Assembly (NCBI RefSeq): GCF_032362555.1
Contig: NC_083522.1
Span: 4,256,001-4,320,000, forward strand
DNA length: 64,000 nt
Reading direction: 5' to 3'
DNA from: Amyelois transitella
Taxonomy: Eukaryota > Arthropoda > Insecta > Lepidoptera > Pyralidae
Part shown: piece by piece, positions 36,460 to 59,100 of the stretch
Layout: each line of letters opens with the position of its first letter
Numbering within the stretch: the stretch's first letter is position 1
Position numbers and translations under genes: made by a program
Notes under the pieces: generated by a model
The model's database searches: none
Seen by the model: the letters and a program-made list of their open reading frames with translations, nothing else
Told to the model about the DNA's origin: nothing

Positions 36460-38333
36460 TTTGCTACACACAGAATGATTTATTCGAAGGCACACCTAAG
36501 CATAAAATTAATTGTAAACCACCAGTGTAATACCTACCATTGTACAAATACTGCTTTTGTGAAGTAAAAATAATAAAAAATTTATTACTATTATAAAATT
36601 GTAATTTCTATAGGCAAATTGTGCAGCCTGTGCAAAAAGAATATATGGTAACTACAAGAAAGATGACTCATACAAAAAATAAAAACTCATAACTTAACTT
36701 CCGAATAAAGCATGCTTTTTATTCCAGAAATTCACACTAGCCTATTCTAAACAAATAAAATAATGGCATTTATTTACAATTTATCCAAGTAAAAAAAATA
36801 TCAAACTAATGTTCTAAAAACTTTTATTATAAAGTCTTGTTTATTTTTTTAATATAGTTACTTCTATTGGAAACACAAATATTACATAATGTTAGTAAAA
36901 TTTGGCAGAGATAAAATAAACACAAATAAAATTTTTATAATGCTTTTTTATTTGGGGTATTCCTTTTTTAGTTTGGTTGACTGGAAGAAATTTAACTAAT
37001 GATAAACTAGTTTTAAATAAATTTATTTACTTGTGAAGCAGCTTTGCCTATATTTATACAGATATAGAGATTGATATAACAGACTTAGCTAGCTTTATGG
37101 CATTTCTAGATGTTGGTATCTATGAGAAGAAGAATATAAAAATTAAAGTTAATAAACCTTCTTAAAAAAAATGGAAAAATGGGAAGGAAGGAGGATGAAT
37201 CTTTTGCGTTTATTCATAACAATGAGGTATTGAAGTAAAATTTAGTATAATTAGTAAGTACTTTATGAGGTAATTTCAACAAAAGAAAAAATTTCTTTTC
37301 TAGCTTGCCTCAGTGAAATTAAGGAATTGTAAACTAGAAATTTTATGAAGTTAACACTGAATAAGCATATGTGTATGAAACAAACGAAAGATGAAAAGCT
37401 CTTAAAGCATTTATTTTAAAATACGACAGCTATAAGCTACATTCCCAATGAACATTTGAATTATACAAATCGCCTGTAACTAAAAAAACTCCTAACTACA
37501 AGTGAAAGCCTAAATTCAAGATCTAATTTATTGACAGAACAACACGGAGGAGGCATGCAATGGATACGTACAATTAATTTTGTTGTTTCCACACGAATAA
37601 ATTTAATTATATGGTCTTCTAACACAGTTATTCACCGTCAAATTGCGGTAATATGAAAATATTGAAATCACAAACTATAATAATAAGTGTAGAAATAAAA
37701 TGAAGTAAACACAATTAACAGCCGTGTTAATTTTGATTTGACAAATTTTAATAATAAAACACCAAAAGATTTCAGTAATATCAATGAAAATAATGATGAA
37801 ATCTAAAATCGTATTGTTTTTGTTATTGTTGTACTTCCATGTTGATGTTGAACACTCACTTGTCATCATTTACATGAATTTGACATTGACAGTCACCCAT
37901 CTACATTAGGTTTTTTAATTTCGGCGCGTAAGTATGAAAATTATTTCCATGAGCAGGTAGGTCTTATTATATTATATGTAATAACAACATACATAAAGAA
38001 TATATACTCTTATTACTATTTTACTTTTCATTATTTCACATTTATATTTTATGAAAATAAATATGAAATGATAAATAGAAAAAATTGTAAACGGGAAAAG
38101 TAGAACACAAGATAATATACGAATTTAAAACACATACTGGTGACTAACATAATATTATATTTTGACACTGAAATAGACAGAGCTTTTCAAAGATTTCGTC
38201 AAAGCTTTTGACAAAACGACAGCATGAATAAAAACACAAAAAATACTTGAGTAATCATTATAATGTGGCTAAAATTCATAATAATGTAACTTTTGATGGC
38301 CTTCATTTTTTAAATACAAAATTATACTGTGAT
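36460..38333. other. Upstream flank of the TSSK-like kinase, no gene seen
   Basis: Very AT-rich. It presumably holds the 5' UTR and promoter of the kinase near its right end; no TATA box or initiator could be assigned with confidence. Confidence 0.4.
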
Positions 38334-41300
38334 ATGCCGGGGCCGGATGTTAGAGCCAATGAAAATGTATTCGGTGAGATGTCGACCGAGCCCGCGGCGA
38401 CTCTGCACAGCGGTACTGAAGCTGCTAAACCCGAAAGGAAACTTACCGTACTCGAAACACATGGATATGTACTTGGTAGAACAATTGGGTCAGGCTCATA
38501 TGCTACCGTCAAGGTACTCTGTCTAGTTACTTCTTCTTTCAGAGGTGTATTTTTGGTCGATCTAGTCTCGTGAAAAATAGAGCGATTAGCCTATGAGGCA
38601 AAAATGCAGCAAACGTCGCTTTGTCCGTTAGATACCAATTGTAGATCATGCTACCTATAATATTAATGATTTTTAATTAACAGTCTCTATAGTTACTTCA
38701 TTCCTCTTAAATATTTATAATAAAACAGGTAGCTACAAGTGAAAGGCACAACTGCCAAGTAGCGGTTAAAATAATAAGCAAATTTCAAGCACCAGGCGAT
38801 TATCTGAAGAAGTTTCTGCCAAGAGAAATAGAAGTCGTGAAGGGACTGAAACATGAAAATTTAATACGGTTTTTGCAGGCAATTGAAACCACACACAGGT
38901 TTACTTTTAATTGTTATCATTTATAGCTCATCAAAGTGTAGAAAATATAGACGATTAAATATTTAGATGCTTAGTTTAGAATGATACTACCTATCTATAT
39001 AAAATAGCCTAAAGTCGACTATTAGCATAGCTGTCAACTTGGCAGTTCTTAGTGGAAATTCCAACTAGATACACGAGTAGTAACGTGATTTTTATGAATG
39101 CTTTGATTTAACAATGTAGATTTTTATACAGGTTAGCGAAGCAGCGGGTTATTCACGATTGCCCACAAGAAATTTATTTATCTGTTATTCTGTTATGTTA
39201 ATGAAAAAGTTAGAAAGGGGGAGAAAATAAAAGTAAAAACTATGCTTTTTAGGGTCTACATTGTGATGGAGTATGCTGAAAACGGCAGCCTCCTAGACAT
39301 CATCCGCAAAGATCAACACATAGACGAGATCCGTGGTCGTCGTTGGTTTCAGCAGCTTGTCGAAGCCGTGGAGTACTGCCACGAACGTGGGGTAGTTCAC
39401 AGGTAAAATTTCTTCTACCCTCTTTTTCACGAACTTATATTTTTTTAAACCACTGTTACAATGCTTAAACAGGTAATATTTAGCCAAAATGCTCAGCAGA
39501 CGACAAACGTCTGCGTTCGATTCACGAACGTTGATAAACTTCCCTCTTTCTCTTTCCCAGCGGTTAATTCAAAATATAAAAAGAGTGAGAATATAAGCCA
39601 TGCCATGACCTCTGATTCTCGAACATTAATATGGCATAGGTGTGTTACGGTGAGGGAAAACATCGTGAAAATTAGAAGAAACTTATACATTTCGACCAGA
39701 TATACAATTTGACACGGTATTATGTCTTATCTTCCCTCTTTTTTTTATCACTTCTGAGAGCCTTAAAGACATAGGTATGCCCCCATATCGTCACCTCTTC
39801 TTGCTTGTACAGGGACATCAAATGCGAAAACTTGCTGATGGATCACGGTTTGAACATAAAGCTGTCTGATTTCGGATTCGCGAGGGGTCATATGAAGCCA
39901 AAAAATGGAGTGTATTCTTTGAGCGAAACCTTCTGCGGCAGTTACGCCTACGCTTCTCCCGAGATCCTGAAAGGGGTCCCTTACAGGCCACAGGACTCCG
40001 ATATATGGAGCATGGGAGTGGTGTTATATGCTATCGTATACGGACGACTGCCCTTTGACGATACAAATTACACACAGTTATTGAAGGTTAGTTAGTCAAT
40101 AGACATAAGTTTGCTAACAAAAATTTGCTAACCAAATAACGAAGAAGGTAGGGTTTGAAATTTTCACGATTCTTGACATGCTGTTTAATAGTTCCACCTC
40201 GTTCCGGTAAAAGTTATTGATGATAAGTATAGTCCACTTTAATAACAACAGCTTTAGTAACAACTTCTTAAGACGATAAACGGGCATTATAAAACATTAT
40301 CACCGACCCATTTATAAATAAGAGCTTGAAGTCATCGTATTTAAAATTTTAGTACGAGTACAACACATATCACTAAGTTGTCAGATATTTGTTTCACCAA
40401 TTTTATAGTAACTCTTTTCCGCAGCAAGTTCAGAACAAAGTTTCGTTCCCAAGAGAGCCAAAGGTTTCGACGGAATGCCGCAAACTGATCACCAGAATCC
40501 TGGCTCCTCTGAAGGTCCGTCTGAAAATCCCACAGATCCTCGCCGACCCCTGGTTAAACCCCAATCAACCAGCCAAAGATGAAGAAGTTGATGCTCAGGT
40601 AAACCAACGCAGGTTTGATAAAGAACTTAACACCAAGAATAACCAGATTAAAAACTTCTTTGTAAGTCCCCATTCAGCTGGATAGCTGAATAGATTTGAG
40701 ATTCATATAGCGACAGGTTGCTCAGTGCTCAGCCTTTCCGAGACTTTGGCTCTGACTAGTAAGGGATAAATTTTTAGTAAGTAGGTAAGTATGTATGCTT
40801 ACTTGTAATATCACGGGTCTATTATAGCTTGTTTTTTTTTCTGGATTCGGCTAGTTTCTTATAATTATCTACACTATTAACTTCCTTCTACTGCTGGCGC
40901 CATAACAGCTTGTGCCCATTTTTATATATCATCAACGGTATGACCGTTTTTTGAAAAACATGTTTGTCATAAATAAATTTATTGTGCCATTAGCTGTTCC
41001 CGCGACTTCGTCCGCGTGGAATAGTTATTTTGGGCATCATTGAAGCCCTCAAGGAGGAACAATTTCTTCTAATAGTTGCAGCGTCATGATAAATAGCCTA
41101 AAGCAAGCTTCCTCGATAAATGGTCTATGAAACACAAAAAGGATTTTTCAATTCGAACCAGTAGTTCCCGAGATTAGCGCGTTCAAACAAACAAACAAAC
41201 TCTTCAGCTTTTTAATATATTACAAATTTATATTTGTAATGTATATTACAAATTTCTTCAAGTTTATTAACTTTTTGTCTGTTTAAAGAAATGAACTAGT

Positions 41301-41846: not shown

Positions 41847-42683
41847 TAATTTGATTAAACACCTGTAAAAAATTTTAAGAGCTCTATATTTTTGTTTTAA
41901 CCTTTTAAAAATAATAATAGAGAGATAAAAAATGAAAATATAGTTTTTTTACTCACAAACAAATCCATGTGTTACATACAAACCAAATGCCATCGTCTCT
42001 TACTATACCCGGCATTAAAGTTGTCCCTAGAGAATTTTTCACTTCCGGGATGCGCAGTAGCAATTTTTCATACCTCCCTAAAAACATCGAATATTTTGAT
42101 GTCGCCCAATGTAACTAAGCGCTATTTCGCCGTCTTACGACGATAATTTTAGAAAGAAGTTGAAAAAGTTCGTAGGCATAAAAGCACAAACAAAGAACAA
42201 TCATCACAATATGTAAGTAACAATTTGATTTATTTATATTATAAACTATAAAAACTACGTATAAACAAAGAAACTAAAATTAATTAGAAATAGTTCATTG
42301 ATTCACAGTTAAGTGTCTTAAAAGGATGTGAAGTACCATCAGGCTTTTTCTTCGTCAAGCAGATATTATGGGTGGATGCTCATTAGAGCGGACCATTGTT
42401 GCGTAACTACCGAACTGAAACTTTACATCCTTTTATATGAAGCAATTATACCAAGTGCATATTCTGACCGGGCCCGCGGGACTTTCAAAATTGTATATGG
42501 CCACGTTAATCACGTTCAGCTGTAGCCTTTAAGCCTTTTTTAGACCGTTTGCTCTGTCTGCCCGGCAAGGAATATGTAAGTAATGTCGTGAATCTATAGT
42601 CGTGATAATATGTATGCAATGTAACTTATTAAAATCATGTCCCGTCCGCCCCAGATAAAGACCGCTCTAATGAGAACCATCTC
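41847..42683. other. Convergent intergenic gap with family-2 tail and 13-bp inverted repeat
   Basis: Separates the ends of the kinase (+) and RNASEK copy C (-). Contains a plus-oriented family-2 tail (42,515-42,585: tttagaccgtttgctctgtc then tgcccggcaagg) and a perfect inverted repeat, ctcattagagcgg at 42,379-42,391 and its complement at 42,662-42,674. Confidence 0.5.
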
Positions 42684-43913
42684 TTACTTGGGGTCATCTA
42701 GTGTTCCGCACAATGATTCTTCTGCATAAGCTTTTTCGGCCGCCTTCCTGTCATTTGATTTTCCTCGAGAGATCATGTACCAGGACACCAGAATCATAAC
42801 CACGTATATATACGCAGTATAGTAACAAACTCCTGATATCTAAAAAAGCGAAAATCAAGTTTAATTCTTTGCTCTTTCTATTTCCTTCTGATGCAAAAAC
42901 AGAATGAAAATTGATACTATTTATTCAGAGATAACTTTATATGCTTTCACGCTGAGGAAACTATGGACCTTGCAAGGCTGAGTTCTCTGCGTGTACCCAC
43001 TTCATACCTTTTTTGTCATATACCTATAATCTTTGAAAAGGTGGACCCGAGGCTTTTCTCCCGACATGTGTTGACTCAACTGGGACTAATTTCAGATAGA
43101 TAGCACATTTAAAAGGGATTTAACAATGTAATATCAACCGTTCACCTTTTGAAAATTAGCTTTTGTAATAGATAAGTAATCTGAGATATCGTTATATTTT
43201 TCGGCTTCCACGTCATCAACTAACGTTGACGCTTCTATGCTATAGAAAAATCCCATTAAAGTCTGCAACCATAAAACATTGATCATTAGTAGAAAGTCAG
43301 CGCCTCTGGTATTTAAGGTACTTAAATTGACGAATTGAATCTTCTGTTTTTATACAAAAAATATCTATCTCATACTCACAAATAGATATTTTTTCTTGTA
43401 CTTGTTAAAACTATTCTTTTATGCTCCGGATTCAAGTCCCACCGCCGCTACCAATAGATTGTTAATCGTGTTCTTACGGTGAGGGAAACATCGTAAAGAA
43501 ATATGCACATTCAGGCAACCGGATATTATGTTAAGGTTCCTCTGCAAGCTTGCGGAGGTCAGACGGGCCGCTTCGTGTAAAAACCTGACTTACACCCACC
43601 AGGAACATGGTCATAGGCTGTCTAGTCTAGGAAGGGTACTAACTTTTTATTGGAAGATGATAATGAATAAGATTACATAAATATTAAGGTATTTAGATAG
43701 ATAGAATACTTTAATTACAACAAATTAACTTATCCTAAACTTATGCTATGGTAATGTACAAAAAAATTAAGATATCAAATGAAACTCAGACGAATGAATT
43801 ACATTTTTAAGTACGGTGGACCTAAGAGATAAACCTGTGTCACTCACCAATTGTATGACAGCCCAAATGCTAAGGCACAGGCAGCACATACCGCCAGAAT
43901 AAAGAGCGCCCAT
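42684..43913 (-). CDS. RNASEK-like protein, divergent copy C
   Basis: A small two-helix membrane protein related to ribonuclease kappa. Exons on the minus strand: 43,848-43,913; 43,146-43,262; 42,684-42,839, all phase 0 with good sites (gtgagt, gtgaac), giving 112 residues. Exon 1 is MGALYSGGMCCLCLSIWAVI then QL; exon 2 begins TLMGFFYSIEASTL; exon 3 begins ISGVCYYTAYIYVVMILVSW. Intron positions and the SIWAVIQL-TLMGFFY core match canonical copy A (SVWGIIQL-TLMGVFYY), and CYYTAY replaces NCWIAA. An in-frame TAG lies just before the ATG, so the conserved CGPKLSLCG N-terminus is truly absent. The hydrophilic tail is longer than in copy A. Function unknown; I infer a diverged tandem duplicate. 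Confidence 0.78.
43425..43625 (+). mobile_element. tRNA-derived SINE in intron 1 of RNASEK copy C
   Basis: B-box-like ggattcaagtcccaccg is followed by cttacggtgagggaaacatc, cacattcaggcaaccgg and cttgcggaggtcagacgg, the usual body of a lepidopteran SINE. It is antisense to the host gene. The A box is not clear. Confidence 0.6.
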
Positions 43914-44394
43914 TCTTTGCTATGCACTTGTGTATAATATTTATTTCAAACTCTATAAATCAAAGTAAATACCTAGCAAAACGAGCAATACCTGTAGACA
44001 ATTTGACAATGTTATCAAAACGACACTGATGTTTTGGGCGTGATGGTATGTCACGAAAATATTTTTTCAAGGCTATTCGCGGAATGGTGGACAAAAAAGT
44101 TTGTCTACCGACATTATCCTGGGGGACAACGGGGATGACCAAGGGTATAGTTGTTGTCTTTATAACATGCACGCAGTAAATAAAAGAAGTGATTCTTATC
44201 CTAAGTTCTATGTATGTCGAAAGGCTATCAAAAGGCAGGAACTGACTTCCATTTAATATCTGAGCGCCTCCCAGCTTAGTCGTTTATCCCGCTTTTGACT
44301 CTACTACCTACCTAAGGTGATCCACATGTAATGACAATAGATATAGGTAATAAATTCCAGATTATAAACAGAGCCGCGTCCGACTCTCTTGGAC

Positions 44395-44700
44395 CTGTTC
44401 ATAGCAAATTATATACAAGATTGGACTAAGAGAATCCTGTGCTCTTCACCGCACGTGGAAGGCACAGGTTCAAATCCTCGGCCATGTATCAATGACTGTT
44501 TTCAGAATAACGTACATTAGTTTGAGTGCTAACCGATGCTCTTTACGGTGAGGGAAAACATCGAGAGGAGACCAGCACATTCTGCAACTTTGAGTGATAA
44601 ATCTAATATTAAGCTAGAGGCTAGATTCCCTTGTAAGGGTCTATCTAACGGGTAACGGAGGTCAGAGAAATGCAGAAATGTAGAGATTTTGAAATTTAGA
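44395..44700 (+). mobile_element. tRNA-derived SINE between RNASEK copies B and C
   Basis: B box aggttcaaatcctcgg (about 44,466) is followed by ctttacggtgagggaaaaca, cagcacattctgcaac and acggaggtcaga. Same family as 43,425-43,625 but more diverged. Confidence 0.6.
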
Positions 44701-44841
44701 AATGATACCTTAATAAAATCGACGAAGTCGTGGTCATCGACCAACTAGTTAAAAATAAAAGGCAAATTTAATATTAACGCTTTAATGTTTCATAAGTTTA
44801 TAAACACTATGTCAATATTGGTTCGTTCGTAACGATAATAA

Positions 44842-47800
44842 TTATCGTTTTCGAACCAACGTAGGTATATCTCCTAGCTGCTTTTTCGCTTCCATTTTAT
44901 CCAAAATTTTTCCTTTGAAGATTACGAACCAAGATATCACATTGATGACCACGTAGGCATAGGCAGCGTAGTAACAGTTGTGTGACACCTAAATGCAAAT
45001 ATTTTTAGTATATAATCTTATATATAAAATTCTCGTGTCACAATGTTCGTTCCCGTACTCCTCCGAAACGGCTTGACTGATTCTCATGAAATTTTGTGAG
45101 CATATTGAGTGGCTAGTTATTTCATTGTAATATTATAAAAATCAGTACATATATAAGTCGTACCTACCTAGCTGACTGTGTCGTGAACTTGAAAGATATT
45201 GGCAAAAAATTGGTATCGATCCCCCATAGTTCAATAAGGGCAACCAAAATCAAAAATGTATTTTAATTTCTGTTTGTCTGTACGTTTGTACCTAATAACT
45301 CGCATTACACGAGAACTATTGTTCCGATATTAATACTGTTTTCTTAGATGTATTATTCTCGCCAACTAAGCCGTCGCGTAAAGCGATCGCGGAGGCGAAA
45401 TTACCTATCAATCTTTAGCAACCATTTTATATGGGAAAATGTTTTTGGGTGAAAATGTGGAAAAACTAATTTTTCTGGATGTAGGACCTAGTAAGATCGT
45501 TTTTTTTTAATTCCCGTACGCACCTATATGTATTTAAAATTTCAACGAAATCGTTAGAGCCGTTTTCGTGTACCTACACGTTTTATCTATATTAAAGGAT
45601 ATTTTTCTATAAAAAGATAATATCAAAATTGTTTATCTTTATTAAAGAACCTATTAAAGAAATTGACCAGTTACTTATAGGGCATGGGAAGCTGAAATTA
45701 TACTCCACTACCTAGCTGTTTCCCGTGATTTAGTGTTCTCAAGACTAAAGGTTCTGTCTACCCCGTAAGGAATAAGGACGTGATTTTACATACGTACTTA
45801 TGTAATACATATAGGCATTGGTATTAAAAAAATGTTTAAAAAAACAATAACTAGTTACTTACTATTTGGTAATTATCTCTTAGGTACTTCATACACAAAG
45901 TTATAACTGCTATTAGTATCCACTACAGAAACGTCTCCAAGTAGAGTTGACGCTTCTATGCTATAGAAAAATGCCATTAATGTCTGTGAAAAGAAATTTC
46001 ATTTGTAGGTAAGTAGGTATGCCTACTTACCTACAAATGATATTTCTACAAGTAAATACATACAATGTGTAACGGAAAGGGGGTTATCATATTGAGTACA
46101 CCAAACGAGTTACCGGTAACAAACAGCCTGGTGCCACGCAAAACCCTAAAAGTAAATTTTTTATTTTGAAATTTTTATTTTTTACAGCCGATTTTATTTT
46201 ATTTTATGTTATTTTATTAAAACTTGCACAACACTATAGCAGTAAACAGCTGTGAGGTCAATAGCACCTTAACGATCACACGCATTGGCCCGCTGGCCTA
46301 ATGTCGACGCCTCCCGTCTGTACTCCTGGTACTTTAAAATAGTATTTTAGAGCCAGGGTTCCGGATATCTTTTTTTTTTTGTTTTTCTTAACTAAGTGTT
46401 CCTGCTTTTTTCTTTACTTTTTACTATTTAGCTGACGAGTCCCACCTGCGAAACTTGATTTTTTACTTTATCTCATTAAAATTACAACTTTACACTGAAG
46501 GCTGTTTGAATATCAGTGTTTCATATGACTCTTCAATCTCATGGCAAAAAAGAAAACTGACTAACAGTTTCTCATCAATTATTTTAGCAGATTAATTGTA
46601 GCAACTAAAATACCGGACTGGCGTTTTTACAGTTATAAAGTAAAAGTAAAACAACGAACTAAGCGTACTGAATAATATCAATGTAGTAGTTACCAGAGAA
46701 CGTGTTTGTAACATTATGAAAAACTTAAATATGAAAGAAATATTTTTTAAAGAAATAATAATTAAAAAGAGAAATAATCAAACTATTATTGAATCACAAA
46801 ATCCGAGCAAACTATTGTTGTTGGTTTTAACTAAAATTTTCCAAATGAACCCTGAAATAGGCGTGACTTTTCTTTGCAAGGAGCAAAGAGCAAGGTCGAT
46901 TAATAATGTATTAAAATGGTTCCGGATATTTTAAGAAATTTTCTATTACGAACGAAATTCTTTTTCATATTTTAAGAAGCCGATTAACGAATATCGTCAT
47001 AAATTAATAAAACTATTACTAATGATCTAGTACTTAAATGACGTTTACATAGGTTGTTAAAAGTCCGGGAAGAAAGAAATGTTCGTGAAGGGAAACATGT
47101 TTTCTTTTAAGTCTCTGATCCTTGCGGACGTCAGACGGCAGTCTCTCTGCGTCATCTGCATCAACAACACTACTCTTTTTTGCATCATGGGTAAAAACAT
47201 CTCCGAATAAAATAAAGGAATTAATCATTTAGCTACCAGGATTTCATGGATACGCAAGAGGTTTAATTTATCTACTTAAAAATAAATGAAAACGGGCCCC
47301 TAATTTACCAAAACGAGAAGGCAAGACTAGATAGAGTACTTGTCTCTCGTTCTTAAATTCGACTAATTCAAGGTCAATATTCAAATTTGAGAGTGTGTGT
47401 GTGCGCAGTCAATGGGTTCACTGTCTAGTACACTAAGCGCCGCCCAATGGCGCTACGCCGCGAGACAGGTGATGTACACGTATCCTTTCTTCCGCTTTAG
47501 GGTAAGTGAGGGTAAAATGATGATCCCACCTGATTATTTACGTTTGTGATTAGTAAACTTTTACTTTGTTTAATTTTATCGCCACATTCATAAAAAAGTT
47601 GTCAACATTTAGTCAACCTAGGAAACACGTTTTGTACATGCCACTTTTTCCTATTGGTAAGAGTGGTAGTAAGTATGGTAAAATTTTGAAATCAAATAAT
47701 ACTGTTTTTAACCCGTTTATTATGGTAAAATTAATAAGATATTGAATCAAAGGGACAAAACATATTTGTACTAAAATAATTTTATTTCACCTTTGTTTAC

Positions 47801-50182
47801 AAAAATAGCCGGTTAACGTGACCGTGGTCGACTTTGCCCGTGTCTCCCCTGTACTAGGATGCCAGAATCGGGAAGCGGAAATGTACAATTATTTGAGAAG
47901 TCAATCAGTCGTTCGCTATCCGTTTGCGTGACAACCAGTGCTGCCATTTTAACGCTTTGGGCGCTAGATCTAGCGCTTTTTTATGTGTTTGGTGCGCTTT
48001 ACAGAATTATGGCACCTAGCGGATAATCTGGTGTTTTTTTTAATTTACATCATGACATATTAAAAAACTCTATGGCTCTATCAGCATCAGTTATTTTAAA
48101 GCCTAATAGAGTGTTTTTTTGTTTGTTTGCTTTATTTCATTCAAGAAAAATTGTTCTTTTAGCGCGATATCTAGCGCTTTTTTAAAGCACAATTTCCAAG
48201 AAATCGAGCGCTTTTTTACATCTTACAGCGCTCAATCGGATTTTTGGTCTGGCAGCACTGGTGACAACATTGTTTGTGTTTTGACTTTTTCGTACACGTG
48301 TTCTCTTTCGTGATTTCTTTGAGTAATTCAGAATATTATTACGACTACAATGAACATTATTGGTCGCATACCTAGCTACCAATCCACATGTTTTTACGGA
48401 GTCATCTTTCCAGTACCAGTGGCGGATAAATGTGTTGGCTGGATGCTGGAATAGTCGGAGATGTTGTCGTTGAACCATATTTTTTGCCTAACAGCCTAAA
48501 TTTCCTAGAAAATTACTTAAATGAGGAACAGTAATGCCAGTGAGAAGTTACGTGGATATCGTGATGGAAAACAACCTAATATTCCAACATGGTGGCGCTC
48601 CAGCTCACTTCGCTCGTGATGAGCGCAGCCACCTCAATGCCCGGTTCCCGGAATGGATTGGACGAGGAGGACGTATCGCATTGCCTCCGCGGTCTCCAGA
48701 ACTCACACCACTTGACTTTTTTTCTGGGGATACATTAAAAATAAAGTGTATGCGTCGGATTCCCCTTCGAGCGAAGAAATGGTTGCCCGCATCAAACCGC
48801 ATGCGATACTGTAACGCCAGGAATGCTTCGCAATGTCTGGGTTTCCATTTACCGGAGAGCTGACTTGTGCATCCAAGAAGGAGGTCGACGTTTTGAACCC
48901 TTTCTTTGAAAGGTATGTAGGTTTTCATTCTTTCTTTGACTTAGTTACCAATTTATTTTGTAATGTAGGTAATTATTTATTAGCTTGCATGAAGAGTTAT
49001 GAATGTGGATGAAGCGAAGGAAGTATGCAGAGATCGTGGAAAGATGTAGTCTCTGTCTATCCCTCCGGGAAAAAGTCGTGGTTTTATGTATGTAGGTAAT
49101 TATTATTTCTTTTGCATTTCATGCGAATATTTTCAAATCGATTGAATGTCTTAAACGACGTACCTCTGTCAAAGCAAAATGATTCTTATTGATTAAGTAA
49201 ACGAGTCTTATTTGTTTGTTTTAGAATCTTCGTCAAACGTTCGCCGCCTTGCCGCGATCTCTTTGACGGCGCCGACAAAGCGGCTACCTACGACTTAGGT
49301 CGCCGACGGTACCAGGAGAAAATGACGAGTGAGGAGTTAGTGTTTTAGTGTACATCGATAGTGTCTTAGTGTGTGTGTTGTTTTGAATTGGGGATGTTGA
49401 CCCAATAGTGATTTGCCACGTTTGTTTACATTTAAATAAATACATTTTATTGCGAAATTTTATTGACATGCATTTATGAACATGGTGATAAGGACCAGCA
49501 GTAGCAGTAGGAAGAATCTATTTAAGGTATAGTATCCACCCACTTTTTATGATAACCCCCTTTCCGTTACACCTTGTATAGGTATTTACTTAGTCTCAGG
49601 TCCATTGTAGCTGTATCAACCGCTAGATGGACGCTTACAAATAAGAAAACTTATGTTTAAGCTTTGATCATGTCATATGTACCTATGTACATATATGTTA
49701 TTTGTATTTTTTCCTTTCATAAAATAATTCCTTTTGGGGCTCTAATCCATCCCAAGATAGAATGCAACACGTGTGGTTCACAGCACTTTTATAATAAGAC
49801 CACTACATATATTACCCATGGATGTCGTAAAAGGCGACAAAGGGTAAGGCTAATAAACTTAATAAAGACTATAGATTCTTCATAAGGGCGATGGGCTCGC
49901 AACCTGTCACGATTTGAATCTCAATTCCATCATTTAGCCATGCAGCTGAACGTGGCTTTTCAGTCTTTTCAAAACTGTTAGGTCTGTCTACCCCGCAAGG
50001 GAAATGGACGTGATTATATGTATGTAGACATACAGTAGAAGGGAATACAACCAAGACAAACGCAAGTAAGATGATAGGTATAGGGTTCAAAAAATAAAGC
50101 GCAATAAATTACCTACCAACTGTATGACCGCCCAAATACTTATGCAGAAAATGAATACTCCTGTGGTATAAATAACACCCAT
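44842..50182 (-). CDS. RNASEK-like protein, divergent copy B (exon 2 donor doubtful)
   Basis: Exons on the minus strand: 50,117-50,182 (MGVIYTTGVFIFCISIWAVI then QL, donor gtaggt), 45,888-45,983 (TLMAFFYSIEASTLLGDVSV onward) and 44,842-44,988 (VSHNCYYAAYAYVVINVISW onward). Exons 1 and 3 are cleanly open and phase 0. Exon 2 has an in-frame TAA at 45,873-45,875; the only phase-0 GT before it is gtacct at 45,887, a weak donor, which would give 102 residues. Otherwise the protein stops 36 codons into exon 2 without its second membrane helix. Closest relative is copy C (shared FYSIEASTL). Intron 1 is about 4.1 kb because it hosts a TIR element at 46,063-49,576. An in-frame TAG before the ATG excludes a longer N-terminus. 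It may be a young gene or a pseudogene. Confidence 0.6.
45005..45600 (+). repeat. Helitron-like or unclassified dispersed repeat in copy B intron 2
   Basis: Starts ttatatataaaattctcgtg and continues cgaaacggcttgactgattc, a head often found in lepidopteran non-autonomous repeats and comparable to the start of the 4,845 block. The right boundary is uncertain. Confidence 0.4.
45700..45800 (+). repeat. Family-2 retroelement tail
   Basis: tctcaagactaaaggttctg then tctaccccgtaaggaataag and gacgtgatttta. Confidence 0.55.
45999..46040. repeat. Perfect 19-bp inverted repeat beside the copy B exon 2 acceptor
   Basis: Arms 45,999-46,017 (tcatttgtaggtaagtagg) and 46,022-46,040 are exact reverse complements around tatg. 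With one mismatch the stem extends to 26 bp (45,992-46,047). It lies about 15 bases upstream of the exon 2 acceptor on the minus strand and 22 bases from the TIR element. Confidence 0.85.
47936..48260. mobile_element. hAT-type MITE with perfect 8-bp target duplication
   Basis: Ends CAGTGCTGCCA (47,936) and TGGCAGCACTG (48,260) are perfect 11-bp inverted repeats, flanked by the direct repeat gtgacaac at 47,928-47,935 and 48,261-48,268. An 8-bp duplication and CAGTG-like ends are typical of hAT elements. Inside, the motif agcgctttttt recurs at least three times, as subterminal transposase-binding motifs often do. No coding, so non-autonomous. It is nested inside the TIR element. Confidence 0.9.
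48534..48863 (+). pseudogene. Transposase fragment (Tc1/mariner-like DDE domain), decayed
   Basis: The frame reads NNLIFQHGGAPAHFARDERS, HLNARFPEWIGRGGRIALPP and RSPELTPLDFFSGDTLKIK, closely like the FQ.DGAPAHFA...RWIGR.G...PPRSPDLTPLDFFLWG block of insect Tc1/mariner-type transposases, covering the second catalytic Asp region. Residues before it (about 48,300-48,530) are disrupted by stops and nothing of the N-terminal DNA-binding domain is clear. Beyond LTPLDFF the match weakens and a frame change is likely. It lies inside the 46,063-49,576 TIR element, to which it presumably belongs. Confidence 0.8.
48985..49100 (+). repeat. LINE family-1 3' tail nested in the TIR element
   Basis: gttatgaatgtggatgaagc, gaaggaagtatgcagagatc, then gtagtctctgtctatccctc and a (TATG) end, matching the 11,342-11,720 LINE terminus. 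Confidence 0.7.
49812..50030 (+). repeat. Family-2 retroelement, best-preserved long copy, in copy B intron 1
   Basis: Includes ccatggatgtcgtaaaaggc, gcgatgggctcgcaacctgt, cagctgaacgtggcttttca, gtctgtctaccccgcaaggg and acgtgattatatgtatgta in order. This gives the family's apparent consensus layout for judging the shorter tails. Confidence 0.65.
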
Positions 50183-52010
50183 TATCTATCTTATTAATAA
50201 ATGCAATTCAACTTAAATTTATGCAGACTTATGTTAAGCAACTCGAAATCTATGACAGAATAATGACAAATAGAGAAAAACAAAGATGTTTTATGTCAGT
50301 TACGACATTAAAAAGAAAGGAGGAATTAGTTCAGTGAAGATAATACTTTTTCAAAGAAGTACACAGTTTACGGTTGAAGCGGTTTGAATGCGGTTTTCGT
50401 CAATATACAGCCATATAAATAAAGGGTTTATTTCACTGAAATCCAAAAAAAATGTATGATAATTTTCAAATAGTACACCTTTGCTAGGCACATTATATCG
50501 ATTGATTTATCAGAATTTTTGGACACTATGATGACGTTTTAAAAATAGGTATGCATTATTTTGCGCATATTCTAGGATATAGAAACGACCAATTCTATGG
50601 TTTTATTGCTAAATTAAAAAAATATCTCGGTCAGATATATTGCTTAATGTACAAATCTGATTTACCCAATAATGGTCACAGGCGCACTGTGCCTCTTCAA
50701 TGAGGTAAGGACGCAACCGGAAGGATGATTATAACTATTGCCAATTTACAACATAAAATCACTACTTCCCTACTAATCTCTCTGTGTGCTAGTCTTTCTC
50801 GCCTTAACCACTGAACTGGTTTCAATGAAATTTGGAATAAATATAAAATTGGTCAGGGTCAACTCTATCACTGAATCAAATTCCATCAGGAAGAAAATAG
50901 ACTGCCTCTTATTGCGTAAAAGACGCGTAAGAAGACACGGGCAAAAGCTAGTTATAAATAATGCCACTATACCATTTTAAACAAGTTCTTGGAGTGGAAC
51001 GAATAGAACGTCTTGATTATCACAAAAAAAAATATAGCTACGTAAGTTTAATAAAAATAAAAAATAAAACACACATCTAATAACATTAATACTTTACTTC
51101 AAGAAAATCTATGATTATATAATGTTACCTACTAAATAATTATGTACAATTTGAGAAGGGATACTTTTGCAACAAATCGGAATTATTTTGAAAAGTTTGT
51201 GAATATAGGACTTCAAACTTAAATGAAAAATAAATATGTAATCCTTTATACACAGGTCATATCTTAATCAATAAAAACTGAAAGTAAAATAATCAAAACT
51301 ACCTATTTGATTATAAAATGCAAATTGTACATATAGGTAGCATGAAAACGTGATTGCAAAAACAAAGCAAAAATTATTTACACTGATTTTATTTTATTAT
51401 GGGAATTACAGACATATAGAACATTTGGATAAATTCTGAGTTTAATTACATGATATTACTTCAATATCGTTTTTAGACTTTTTTTAACTTTCAAAAACAT
51501 AGTCATGAGAGTATAACCAAAAATCATAGCTTTATAATTTACATCGGCATCATACTAATTAATTTATATCTGGAATGGTATTATAAATATAACAATTACC
51601 TATCCATTATGGTTTGACTAACTTCAGGGCAGATACACAATAAAAAAAAATTGCATGTTCTGCTCTTTGTCTCATAAAATTTTATTTAGTGATTGCATAG
51701 GGATGGAAATACTGACTCAAGGATAACATTACAGCTATTATTTGAAGCATATGCACGTAACTGATGTTATATGCAGTAACTAGTAATATGCATAGACATT
51801 TTACCCAGGGTAAATTCACAATTCGAAACATCACCTGTTTATTTGTCTATGGTATGTTATCACTAGGTAGTTGATGCACAAGACTGCCTGTTAATCTAAG
51901 GTATTATTATTGCGAACAAGCCCACCAGTGGTGAAACGGAATTTCACTCCACAACAGATTATTCTTTATAGAAGTTAGTTATAACAAATGGAGGTCCAAC
52001 AGCTTCTTAT
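50183..52010. other. Gap between RNASEK copies A and B
   Basis: AT-rich with one inverted copy of the 'ctagctttta' repeat (50,690-50,955, ending gacacgggcaaaagctag). No additional RNASEK-like exon was found. Candidate poly-A signals for copy A on the minus strand are at 51,838-51,843 and 51,681-51,686. Confidence 0.5.
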
Positions 52011-52655
52011 TTACATGCTGACTGATGAACGGTTGTTCATCCAGAACTGGTGACCAGACACCACCAGGGTGACGACGTAAAGCAGTGCCGCTATCCAGCA
52101 ATTGTAAGCATTCTGAAAAAGACAATATTTATATTAAAACAAAGGAAACATACCTATGGTATGCATGAACTATAGATTTTTTTGTTAATATTGCGCTGCA
52201 ATTAATAAATACTTATAGCATTAGAATATTCAAGGTACCTTGAATATAAACTAAATAAAAGAGTGATCTTCCAGCAATATGAAGTTTCTGAGTGTAAAAA
52301 ATAGGAGTACGACCCTGATAACATAACTACCGTGAATTAAATTAGAACATTTTGAGTCAGACTGACCTGTGTGTATCCACTTTCAACTTGCGCGATGAAT
52401 TGGTCAATTGTTCGGTTGCTATGCTCTGTGGCTTCTTCTATGGGGAGATCCTCAAGCAATGCTACGGCCCTGATGTAATAGAAGACGCCCATCAGCGTCT
52501 AAAAGAACATTGAACAAGAATAATGAACATGGAACGACAGAACATACTAATACTTGCCTTATTACAAAACGATAAAAACTTACCAACTGGATTATACCCC
52601 ACACACTTATAACGAGACCGCATAGGGAAAGTTTTGGTCCACAAACTTTAACCAT
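52011..52655 (-). CDS. RNASEK: Ribonuclease kappa, canonical copy A
   Basis: RNASEK is a small two-helix membrane protein; it was named for ribonuclease activity and is now known as a V-ATPase-associated factor needed for endocytic acidification and virus uptake. Exons on the minus strand: 52,584-52,655, 52,367-52,498 and 52,011-52,112, all phase 0 with consensus sites, giving 101 residues. Exon 1 is MVKVCGPKLSLCGLVISVWG then IIQL; exon 2 begins TLMGVFYYIRAVALLEDLPI; exon 3 is NAYNCWIAALLYVVTLVVSG then HQFWMNNRSSVSM. CGPKLSLCG, the LMG.FFY helix, ALLEDLP and NAYNCWIAA are the family's invariant blocks. Its length is close to the ~95-residue fly protein. It is divergent from rush, with 476 bp between the start codons. 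Confidence 0.95.
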
Positions 52656-53131
52656 TTTGGTGATTTATTTTACAAAAATCACACACCAAAACCCGAAATA
52701 AATTTATCGACCTCGAATGAACTGTCAAATGCGGACTTTAAAAAAAATTACTCACATGATCATACTTTGTCTATGATCAAGAATGATGTTATGCAACATT
52801 GAATAATTCACAAAATATATTTTTTATAAATAAGTGGATACTTAAAGCAAATATGGACCATAATGAGTAACTTCTCGTGTTGTGACACCGACACCGATGG
52901 CAAACAGATGCTCTCGTTCGCTGTTTCAAAACCACGTACTTGAGTATTTGTTACCAATTTTAGGTCTTCCACAATGACATTATGCCAATGCCAAAAGATG
53001 AAAAAAAAATAAGTGATATTTATTTTTCTCATCTCTGCCTTTCAGTCTGTGGTTGAGTGAGTGACACATTTTCATTGACTTGACCGTCCGTTCATATCTT
53101 TTTATCGGATTGAAAAATACAAATTGCAATA
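52656..53131. promoter_or_regulatory. Shared (bidirectional) promoter interval of RNASEK and rush
   Basis: The 476 bases between the ATG of RNASEK (minus) and the ATG of rush (plus) must hold both 5' UTRs and both proximal promoters. No TATA box or CpG block stands out and no repeat interrupts it, in contrast to the repeat-laden flanks. Confidence 0.6.
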
Positions 53132-56100
53132 ATGGTGGATCGTTTAGGTAGGCTTTTATTGTCGTGCAATTGATTTTGCTACGTAAAATGAGAATTCGTT
53201 GCTATTGACATAAACAACTAACTACTGCAGTACTTTAATTCTACAGTGTTTGTTCACATACTTTCTATTGACGTCAAACTTTGTTACTGTACCGCAATTT
53301 TATGTAATTATTTTCTTTCAGTGAATAGTGAGGCTAATTCCAGAAGGATTGCTATGGTGGAGAACTGCTTTGGCAGCTCCGGACAAGTAAGTGCTTTTTG
53401 TATATTTTGTATATACATGTATCAACCACTTTTCAAACGACTAGCAACTCCCAAAGATAAGTCCTCGTGCGGGATGTCCCGATTGATAGTTATAAAATGA
53501 TCCTAATATTATTAAGTCTTGATCTTTTGTAGTCAGTTATATCTTACCTGCAATCAATTTATTATTATTAAGTTAATTTGATAAAATTAATTTTGCCATC
53601 TGCAGTACCTTTCTTGACTTGCAAGTGAGGTATAGTATAACATCAATCTTTCAATGTACTGTGATCAGCGCAACCTTTCCCCGTTAAAGCTGTAGGGCTA
53701 AGGTAATGTGACAAGTTTTGTTGAGATTTAGAGTCGCCACTGTCAAAGCAAAGTGTAATCAGTAAAGGATTTATGTCATTGTATGCAAAAAAGTAAAAAG
53801 AGAACACAATTTTTAAAAAAAGTTTTTACCTGTTTTAGCCTTTAGCAGAGCAAGGCAGGGTACTTGTTGGCGAGGGTGTCCTAACAAAAATGTGTCGGAA
53901 AAAGCCAAAGGCTCGTCAATTCTTCCTTTTCAATGACATATTGGTGTACGGTAACATTGTCATTAACAAGAAGAAATACAACAAACAACATGTCATTCCA
54001 TTAGAAGAAGTAAAATTGGAATCACTTAAAGATGAAGGACGTAAGTATATTTTCCATGGTAATTATCGTCTGCTTCAGTGGCTTGCTTTTATCCTATTTA
54101 TTTACATAAAATCTAATAAATATCAATATCTTATTTATATCCTTTATTTTTTTATGTTAGCATTTTTAGGGTTCTGTACCTGAATGTTAAAAATAGAAAA
54201 AAATGAGATCCTATAACTAAACCTCCACTGTCTGTATGCTACCAGGCTGTATCTCATAAAGCTAGTAAGCTGAAATTTTCACTAATAGATTTTGGCAATA
54301 TGTACTGTTTTTATATCCTATACCTATATTTCCAATTCTGATCCAGTGTAAAAATATTCTCAAATAGACATTGAAAAGAATGCATGCTCCTTTTATTTTC
54401 TACTTTATAAACCTACAAAAATTTATTCTTACATTTCAAAAAACAGGTTAAAATGTGAATTAAATAAACAAATTTTTATAAACAAATGTAATATAGTACA
54501 GAACCCGTCGTGCGCAAGGCAGACTCGCATTTGGCTGGTTTTTTTTTTAAATGAACCTCAAGGTCCAGGGTCAATGCTCTGTAAGCAATTCATACTTATA
54601 TAAAACTTTTTTACATATTGAAAATTTCTGACTTTGTCTAAATTTTTAAGATTTGGGCACAGTAAGCATATAATTTTATAACAATACTATCACTTTAGTA
54701 TTACTGATATTATTGTGATAAGTAGTTCATTTTGTCATACATTGATAAGAACATTTTTTATTCTGTTTATGAGTCATTTCAAGATACTAGTATAGTCATG
54801 ATTCACCATTGTGGTTTCACATTCACTTATTTGTCTTTAAAATTCAATACATTTAAATAATCTGTCACCTATAATGCTTGTTGTGAGTCAGACGAGTGGC
54901 AATTAATAGTTTTAATCCCTGCATGCATAGATGTAAATCATCTTTATATGGTTTAACATTTATTCTCATAAAAGATCATAAATAAATCTGCATACATGAC
55001 AATTATATTTTAAAAGTACTCATATACTAAAAGCAGACACCATAAGCTTTCAAAATTTTAAGTGATAACAAAAATTAGGCAGGCAATAAATCTGTTACTG
55101 AGGTCAGGAAGTATGTTATTCTCACTGTCTTGAAGATTATCTGTCTAACAACCGCAACAACTGGGCTAAGTTTATAGTTACTTGACAGATCTATATAAAT
55201 TATCATTTTACACAAATAGGCAGACATTTTTATAGCAAATATACATAAATAAATATAAGGAGTGATATACCATATTTTCAAAAATAAAAATTTGCTATTG
55301 GTGTCCAGTGACGCTGCAGGAAAGGCTAGTTAGCAATACTTCTTAAACTTCAATTCCAATGTATAATTTTCTACAAATAGATCTAAATTCTGGTAATGAA
55401 ACTCCCTGATTAAACAGTACCTCTACTCAGATAAGATAACTGAATTTGTTCAGGGGAACCTCATATTATCGATACACATTTTGTTAGGTAAATAATGATA
55501 TCAGTTAAGTAAGTAACTGCCAAATCAAGTGACTATTATGAAATAAAAATTGTTTAACTGATGAGTAACAAGAATGCGACAGACATACATACATATTATA
55601 ACGTCTGTATTCCTGACGATGTAGACAGAGCAAATTAATAGAATTGCGACTCAGATGTTTACATAGATAATCTCATCAATTATTCGAAACGTCTGAGATG
55701 AAATAAAGATACGTTATGTGCGCGTTTAATACCGGTATTATTTATGTAAAAAATTATTTCCGGAATGCTATTGGAGTGAAATGATTTTTCATCTTATCAA
55801 CAACATACATTTTTGCGTTCGGCGGTTACCATAATTGAGACCTTAACTTATTAAGTGATTTAAGATATATTTAATTGTTTCAATATGTATTGCAGAGTAT
55901 CGTAATGGCTGGCTGATCCGCACAGCTTCAAAATCGTTCGCGGTGTACGCGGCTACCGCCACAGAAAAAGAAGAATGGATGGCGCACATAGACAAGTGTA
56001 TAGAGGACTTGCTCAGAAAAAGTAAGATTTTATCAATGCCACCATGCAAAGCCATAAACAGTTGGCTTATTTGATTGTTGTCCTACACATTTAATATTGC

Positions 56101-59100
56101 CTTTGTTGGATGAAAAACTGTACATTTTAAGAAAGAAGGTTTTTCCCTCATTGAAGCTAATATCAGCCGCCGTAGCGTGTTACGTCCGACGCCATTTTAT
56201 CACGCGAAAAAGTAACGCTGTCCTTATTCACATCATAATAGACACCCAAACGGCGATAGCTATTCGCGCGATAAAAACGGCGTCGCGTGTGTCAAGCTAC
56301 CGTGGCTGATATACTTTTTTTTTCAGTATGATGTAACCACACGACGCACACTATTTTAATACTACTTATTCAGTGTAATAAATAGGTAATTATTATGTTG
56401 TAATCAGGCGGCAAGCAGCCACCATTGGAACATGCAGCGGTGTGGGTGCCTGACAACGAGGCGTCAATCTGCATGCACTGCAAGAAGACACAGTTTACCG
56501 TCCTCAACAGGAGGGTAAGTGTCACTTTTATTTTTATTTATTCATTAAAGTACACTTATACTTAGTACTTGAATGTGGATGAAGCGAAGGAAGTATGCAG
56601 AGGTCGTGGCAAGTGGAAAGAGGTAGTCTCTGCCTACCCCTCCGGGAAAGAGGCGTGATTTTATGTATGTATGTATGTATGTAAAGTACACTTATAACGG
56701 GGGCTTAATTTTTTCTACATTCATTCATGTTTTTTAATGTAGACAATGTGCATTCGTCCACGATTTAGATTTAAGAGATCTATATTTGTAAATTGACGTC
56801 CGATGAAAATGCTGCAGTGTAGTTTGTTTCTTCTACACATGCGCTTTGGAAGCGGTAGTAGTAATAATTAGATTTAAGTTATGTGACGTGAATAAATGAT
56901 ACCTTGTATCAGATTTTGAAAATAAATCTATTCTATTCTATTCGATACTAGTATGGTCTAGACCAAGCTTGCATTAGTAGTCGCTTTTCAAGACATTTAT
57001 AAAAAAACAATTCATATCATACGGTATCTGTAATTTGCCCATATAAAAATGGTTTACTTTTATCGTTAATACACATCTAATGTTGTTTAATTGTTTGCCC
57101 TTGAAATTAAACAATTTGTGAAGCAAGTACGCGCATTTGATTATCGTAAACAATGGACTTATAGTATTTTATCTTACGTAGGGCGATATCGTCGCGTCAG
57201 TTATGATATGAAGGGAAGTGTGGACTGATAATGTGGAACCCTATGTAGGTCGTGCTTTGCTTTACATACACAAATAAATCACGCCTCTTTCCCGTAGGGG
57301 TAGGCAGAACCCACATCTTTCCACTTGTCACGATCCCTGCATACTTACTTGCTTTACATACACACATATAAACACGTCTTTATCCCTTGCGGGATAGACA
57401 GAGACATTAATCTGGCTTACTGTTTGACTAAAAACGGAATTGACAAAATAAAAGACACAACCTTCCACTATTTGAATCTTAATCAAGGCGTACTTATTTA
57501 TTCATTACTTAAAGACATCCAAGACGATTAGGTTACAACGTCACAATAACCAATTGTGGTTTTTCCCAAACATTAGAATTGGCATACTACTTTACGTTTT
57601 GAATTGCGTTACACGACCTAAAAACAGAAATCATTACTATAATTAACATATTTCTATACTATTCATTCTGAGATTATTGTGATGTGAAATTGTGACTCTT
57701 TGGTCGCCTCTTAACGCTTTATGTACTTATCCAATCTTTATGATATTTCGAACCTACATAGTAAGATCTGAGATTAATATAGGGCCGTTCCATTGCGCAT
57801 AAAAATATCCCATAGAATCTGCAGTTAAAAATTTATTTACGCGAGTGAATCCGAGAGCGAAAGTTGGTTATTATAAGAATGTACTAGCTTTTACCCAGAA
57901 CGTCGCCCACACGAATTTAGCCCACCTACGATATAATACAGGTTTTTGGTAATCCCACATGAAATGTAGTTTTACCGGATGGACAGTTTTCTATTTTCTT
58001 CTCCAGACTCTTAATTATAGTATATAAGGTACGCAAATTTTCAAGAAGATTAGTTCAGTAGATAACGCGTGAAGAGGTTACAAACAAACAAATAAATTTA
58101 CTTTCGCATTTATAATATTAGTTGGGACTAGAGTACACATGCGTAAAACGTAAAAACCCATTAATTTCTGTTCGCGCGGCAATTTCAAATTTGACACTTT
58201 TATGCGAAATTCAAATCTCTCGTCTCGACCAAGTGGTTTAATCTGTGCGGTGATATGTTAGTAAGTCCGTATACTCTTTCATATATCCACATCCACACTA
58301 ATAATAATAAACTGACAATATAATAATAAAGAGAAAAGTTTTTGTATATTTGTATGTTCGTAAAGAATAAACTCAAAATTTATGGACTGATTTTTAAGAA
58401 ATTTGGTAAAGATATAGAATAAACCTTCGTGAGTAACATAGGCTACTGTTTTTTCTTCTGTTATTTCCCACAGGAGCGAAGCCCCTCGCGAAAGCTTGTT
58501 CTATACATATAGATCTATATCCCTTGCGAGGTAGACAAAGCCAAGTTTAAGATAAAATAAAAAAATAAATATCTATATTTTAATTCGTTCCAGCATCATT
58601 GCCGCAAATGCGGTTCGGTAGTGTGCGGCCCGTGCTCGTCCAAGAAGTTCCTGTTGCGCGGACAGAGCGACAAGCCGCTAAGAGTGTGCCTGCAGTGCTA
58701 CGACGAGCTCAACCGCGAGCGGGCGCGGCCCAACCAACCACTGCCCAACACACGTGAGTTATTTAAAAAAAAAAACAAATATTTTTTTTTTAACTGTTTC
58801 CTTAATTTTTTCCCCAATTTTAACAAGTAAATGACAGAATGAGGAGCGAAATATATAGAATTCGTGAAAAAATTCTCATAACATTGGTCATCTGTTTTAT
58901 TAGATAAAGACTTGATTATATATGTATGTGTGTTATTTCTTCCTGGCTATAGTCTCACATAGACTTTTACTAAAGCTGTCTATGACGGCCTCTTGTGGAG
59001 CAGCGGTAGTACGATTGTCTGTGGCACCGGAGGTCTCGGGTTCGAATCTGGCCGGGATGAGAAACGAACATTTTCTGATTGGCCTGGGTTTTGGATGTTT

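Follow-up and report, generated by a model that had tools for sequence, protein, structure and literature searches.

Two contested jobs have been ascribed to RNASEK: that of a V-ATPase subunit and that of an endoribonuclease feeding PIWI-interacting RNA (piRNA) production in Bombyx. Bombyx RNase kappa is described as a three-exon, 100-amino-acid protein with two transmembrane regions (PMC8302750). Its conserved Lys9 is the putative catalyst, with much lower activity in the K9A variant, and the protein promotes piRNA production, while the same article states that the catalytic mechanism is unknown (PMC8302750). The activity of human RNase kappa needs a Cys6-Cys69 disulfide (PMC4010519). In RNASEK knock-out cells, acidification is intact and degradation and hydrolase delivery are disturbed (PMC11374810); RNASEK depletion is also cited as raising endosomal pH (PMC5537255). 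Paralogous a and b forms of RNASEK are held to exist in fish only (PMC8645942). For the Drosophila V-ATPase, parental genes keep a dCLEAR box that duplicates may lose, and 11 of 17 boxless duplicates are testis expressed (PMC10452791). Here, we describe a locus of the pyralid moth Amyelois transitella (RefSeq assembly GCF_032362555.1, contig NC_083522.1, positions 4,256,001 to 4,320,000) in which an ordinary RNASEK gene (copy A) is accompanied by two diverged copies (B and C). The whole 64,000-nucleotide stretch is referred to as the window, and positions are counted from its first base. In the explanation that we favor, and that we consider about evenly balanced between right and wrong, C would be an RNase-dead, subunit-f-like RNASEK paralog and B its decaying sister.

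Three RNASEK-like units, with exons re-derived from the DNA, occupy the minus strand from the end of C (42684) to the start codon of A (52655): A spans 52655 to 52011, B spans 50182 to 44842, and C spans 43913 to 42684. No further copy and no second or separate CGPKLSLCG exon was seen when the whole window was searched by tblastn with pieces of A, B, and C as queries. Copy A is an ordinary three-exon RNASEK of 101 amino acids that begins MVKVCGPKLSLCG and carries CGPKL. Its exons (52584 to 52655, 72 bases; 52367 to 52498, 132 bases; and 52011 to 52112, 102 bases with the stop) are separated by phase-0 introns of 85 and 254 bases. Against PF23489 (V-type proton ATPase subunit f-like; curated cutoff, 27 bits), A scored 34.2 bits (E = 3e-8). 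In the PDB, seven of eight rows were vertebrate-type RNASEK chains (E = 8.2e-17 to 5.3e-16); the remaining row was yeast subunit f (E = 0.24).

Copy C is intact but diverged, encoding 112 amino acids in three exons without CGPK. Exon 1 (43848 to 43913, 66 bases), exon 2 (43146 to 43262, 117 bases), and exon 3 (42684 to 42839, 156 bases, with the stop and a longer charged tail) are separated by introns of 585 and 306 bases, in phase 0 and at places matching those of A. The product, like that of A, has a hydrophobic segment at each helix place, and all seven of its PDB rows were RNASEK chains (E = 5.1e-6 to 2.7e-5). A previous sequence-only reading of this DNA had proposed a tandem array of three genes, each with three exons and phase-0 introns. 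Three RNASEK-like units on one strand are indeed present and the exon structure stands for C, but the B gene model does not close, as exon 2 of B stops in frame before its good donor. Because B and C score below the PF23489 cutoff, we name them, on their sequences, diverged paralogs of RNASEK and not certified members of the family. As expected of collections that hold no insects, pattern matches to A (2 in viral contigs and 89 in prokaryote genome contigs) and to C (10 in viral contigs) yielded no confirmed relative.

The sequence-only reading had placed B and C nearer to each other than to A, and the residue counts agree: 45 of 76 aligned residues are identical between B and C, while B and C share 25 of 50 and 24 of 50 residues with A, counting alignable parts only. 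The 76 ungapped codons, which leave out the nonaligning end loop of exon 2 and the tails, gave a dN of 0.29, a dS of 1.31, and a dN/dS of 0.22, with a pN/pS of 0.39 (bootstrap, 0.24 to 0.56) and 21, 18, and 34 differences at the three codon positions. The dN/dS ratio, which that reading had suggested as a check, is thus not near 1, and neutrality does not describe the history that B and C share. From these codons, the split between B and C is old, and constraint acted over much of the time since, although the ratio is blind to which of them still is. Compared with A over 50 codons, pS was 0.91 for C and 0.78 for B; since synonymous sites are saturated at this distance, dN/dS against A was dropped, and only pN/pS is given (0.37 for C and 0.42 for B). 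In exon 2, B (within 45930 to 45983) and C (within 43209 to 43262) share an identical run of 27 bases, a length reached in 101 of 20,000 codon shuffles. This run may reflect gene conversion between the two copies, in which case the split between B and C may look younger in exon 2.

As the sequence-only reading had noted, without linking the loss to RNase activity, the CGPKLSLCG N terminus is gone from B and C; CGPKL is present in A and missing from both. The first lysine does not occur before residue 44 in C or before residue 79 in B (in the weak-donor model described below), and the CGPK place holds no cysteine in either copy. Both copies keep the second-helix cysteine aligned with human Cys69, retain the start of helix 1, and have a longer C-terminal charged tail than A. 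The replacement of NCWIAA was also borne out (NCYYAA in B and VCYYTA in C), while the supposedly kept LMG.FFY core needs a small correction, reading LMGVFYY in A, LMGFFYS in C, and LMAFFYS in B. As the putative catalytic lysine is gone, RNA-cutting activity has probably been lost, and C is likely a subunit-f-like protein without RNase activity.

Copy B differs from C in the state of its gene model. Exon 1 (50117 to 50182, without CGPK) and exon 3 (44842 to 44988, with the stop) are sound, and exon 2 opens in the expected reading frame at 45983 (TLMAFFYSIEAST). Its 3' end reads TATGAA GTACCTAAGAGA TAA TTACCAAATA/GTAAGT (the slash marks the exon end), such that an in-frame TAA (45873 to 45875) precedes the good donor, ATA/GTAAGT, which scores 2.57 and would give an exon of 45863 to 45983. 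Among the five phase-0 GT dinucleotides before this stop, the best is GAA/GTACCT (exon end, 45888) with a score of -2.5, a value reached or beaten by 24% of the 3,707 GT dinucleotides on the strand; the others score -3.95 to -7.22. By the same scale, which uses approximate weights, the five accepted donors (those of A, of C, and of B exon 1) range from 1.67 to 5.19. Splicing at the good donor would leave a 58-amino-acid product with the first hydrophobic segment only, while the weak donor would give a 102-amino-acid model with hydrophobic segments at both helix places. Peptide comparison did not distinguish an exon 2 end in the frame of C from one shifted relative to it, with at least 40% of shuffles doing as well in 9 of 9 comparisons.

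Two further features lie upstream of B exon 2. On the minus strand, a near-perfect inverted repeat of 26 bases around a 4-base loop (45992 to 46047) stands 8 bases before the exon. As RNA, this hairpin has a folding energy of -35.6 kcal/mol, whereas shuffled versions average -12.1 (z = -8.8) and none of 200 folds as well; the structure takes in the acceptor region and may hide the exon 2 acceptor. Intron 1 measures 4,133 bases and includes a 3,520-base element (46060 to 49579, no strand assigned) bounded by 32-base terminal inverted repeats (46060 to 46091 and 49548 to 49579) that are 97% complementary. The inner 22 bases of these arms are identical, and no other site in the window matches them with three or fewer mismatches. 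Removing the element would bring the intron to about the length of that of C. An open reading frame (ORF) within it (48525 to 48863) has no Pfam match and is presumably a mariner-type transposase fragment. Given the stop before the good donor, the weak in-frame donors, the hairpin at the acceptor, and the element in intron 1, we regard damage to B as reasonably probable. Exon 3 remains open for 48 codons, as do 516 of 10,856 equally long frames (same strand, 42 to 53 kb, real exons included), which suggests that B was not damaged long ago. Separately, a 63-base stretch of B intron 1 (49952 to 50014) is 73% alike to one downstream of C (42522 to 42584); both lie outside exons and probably represent an interspersed repeat.

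We propose that the three-exon RNASEK gene (A) was duplicated in an ancestor and that the copy lost the N-terminal CGPKL and gained a longer charged C-terminal tail. A second duplication of this altered copy would then have given rise to B and C. The C product would keep the two-helix RNASEK fold and act in the membrane sector of the V-ATPase as an alternative partner resembling subunit f, presumably without the RNA cutting ascribed to RNASEK, the putative catalytic lysine being gone. B would have been long under constraint like C and now appears damaged. A would keep the general role together with a Mitf-type box, and C would probably act in a restricted tissue, with testis as the first guess.

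The box in question is a TCACATGA sequence of the dCLEAR (Mitf) type at 52752 to 52759 on the plus strand, 97 bp upstream of the start codon of A. It equals the core of the dCLEAR element reported from V-ATPase genes of insects (PMC10452791). Only one other TCACATGA occurs in the window (34808), and shuffles contain 2.2. As the observed number is that of chance, position and not count is the argument: at that rate, a box would fall within 200 bases before one given start with a probability of about 0.007, a figure weakened by the choice of the motif after it had been seen. No TCACATGA box was found near B or C, as chance alone would also predict; a weaker E-box, TCATATGA, occurs at 46521, inside the intron 1 element of B.

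Two neighboring genes on the plus strand bear on these points. A lies head to head with a gene encoding a PH-type domain (53839 to 54180, E = 1.1e-6) and a FYVE domain (58561 to 58827, E = 2.5e-13), which we take to be PLEKHF-like. The two start codons are about 0.5 kb apart (52656 to 53131) with the box between them; since this intergenic stretch is common to both genes, the box may serve either. The other neighbor is a multi-exon kinase gene (38232 to 40685) composed of several ORFs, two of four tested carrying a Pkinase domain. The TSSK-type identity given to it by the sequence-only reading was upheld, with TSSK6 in the best PDB rows for one ORF (E = 1.3e-25; best 60 of 65 rows). In Bombyx and Plutella, male fertility depends on a testis-specific TSSK-like kinase (PMC12551868). 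With a box at A alone and a TSSK-like kinase nearby, testis is a fair guess as the first candidate tissue for C, the kinase neighborhood being weak evidence.

Several observations weigh against an RNase-dead, subunit-f-like C with a decaying sister, in addition to the selection of the box motif after the fact. On PF23489, C reached 25.2 bits (E = 1.9e-5) and the weak-donor model of B reached 20.6 bits (E = 5e-4), both below the cutoff of 27; two unrelated families match C more weakly, also below their own cutoffs. A two-sequence dN/dS is compatible with a recent onset of neutral decay in C. The loss of catalysis presupposes that Bombyx Lys9 is the CGPK lysine, an equation of our own that is very likely correct from the alignments, as this is the sole lysine common to A and the vertebrate RNASEK rows listed. 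C has other cysteines at residues 10, 11, and 13, and therefore the lysine argument alone is firm. The box at A could be due to chance or could serve the PH-FYVE gene, and other, weaker E-boxes occur near C (CACGTG at 44452 and CACATG at 44323) and in B intron 1 (CACGTG at 49768). If B and C were both pseudogenes or heading there, with constraint only in the past, then the stop and splice sites of B, the sub-cutoff Pfam score of C, and the C exon 2 donor (1.67, the weakest of the five accepted) would all be expected. C is nonetheless open in three exons with sound splice sites and matches RNASEK chains at an E value of 5e-6, and we find the loss of both copies decidedly unlikely. That C, and perhaps B, kept or moved the RNase activity or serves the germline piRNA pathway through other residues has in its favor the three cysteines near the C N terminus, the promotion of piRNA production by Bombyx RNase kappa, and a catalytic mechanism unknown by that article's own words (PMC8302750). 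The lysine whose change strongly lowers the Bombyx activity is missing, however, which makes retained activity very improbable.

Two other explanations turn on the state of B. The sequence-only reading had both B and C as functional, tissue-specific V-ATPase accessory subunits, a role that B could fill by using the weak donor GAA/GTACCT to yield 102 amino acids. In line with this, B has sound exons 1 and 3, exon 3 has stayed open, the 102-residue model has both hydrophobic segments and its match to PF23489, and the dN/dS between the copies is low. Against these stand a donor of -2.5 where 2.57 is available just after the stop and the hairpin at the acceptor; two functional subunits are thus unlikely, with function supported at most for C, since B is probably damaged. 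Alternatively, B may be intact and its exon 2 stop an assembly error. The locus is known here from a single sequence, and exons 1 and 3 are otherwise sound. Only short single-base runs lie between the exon 2 start and the stop, however, and the hairpin represents a second, independent flaw, so we give this explanation very little credence. The favored explanation of a subunit-f-like C beside a decaying B can also be taken further: C may be a natural separation-of-function RNASEK that is RNase dead, V-ATPase only, perhaps sperm specific, and selected, leaving the RNA-cutting and piRNA role to A alone. This extended form is rather doubtful.

If the favored explanation is true, a selected paralog that keeps the helices without the cutting motif would offer a natural test of what the fold is for. 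If the extended form holds, the two disputed jobs of RNASEK could be separated genetically in an animal at this locus. RNASEK would also join the V-ATPase subunits duplicated in insects for special tissues. No insect RNASEK duplication was found in the open-license literature searched, which was partly sampled, and databases may well list such copies already as "ribonuclease kappa-like." An article on Dendrolimus names a single RNASEK gene. None of the terms "RNASEK," "ribonuclease," "CG40127," and "subunit f" appears in the main text of PMC10452791. Relative to the RNASEK/V-ATPase subunit f family (PF23489; PDB entries 6xbw_f, 6vq6_f, and 7u8o_f), A and C are alike in the two hydrophobic segments and three exons, and the cysteine before helix 2 and the start of helix 1 are kept as well, while B and C differ in lacking CGPKL, in their longer charged tails, and in their sub-cutoff Pfam scores. 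Bombyx RNase kappa resembles A in its three exons, length of about 100 amino acids, and two transmembrane regions (PMC8302750), whereas B and C lack the putative catalytic lysine, provided that Lys9 is that of CGPK. The fish RNASEK-a and RNASEK-b are likewise RNASEK paralogs with three exons each; these are 73% alike, are ascribed to genome duplication, and keep the family sequence (PMC8645942), whereas the copies described here are in tandem and have lost the N-terminal motif. Finally, the testis-expressed V-ATPase duplicates of Drosophila offer the same arrangement of a boxless duplicate and a dCLEAR-bearing parent, here side by side, but many of those duplicates are retrocopies (PMC10452791), whereas the Amyelois copies are tandem.

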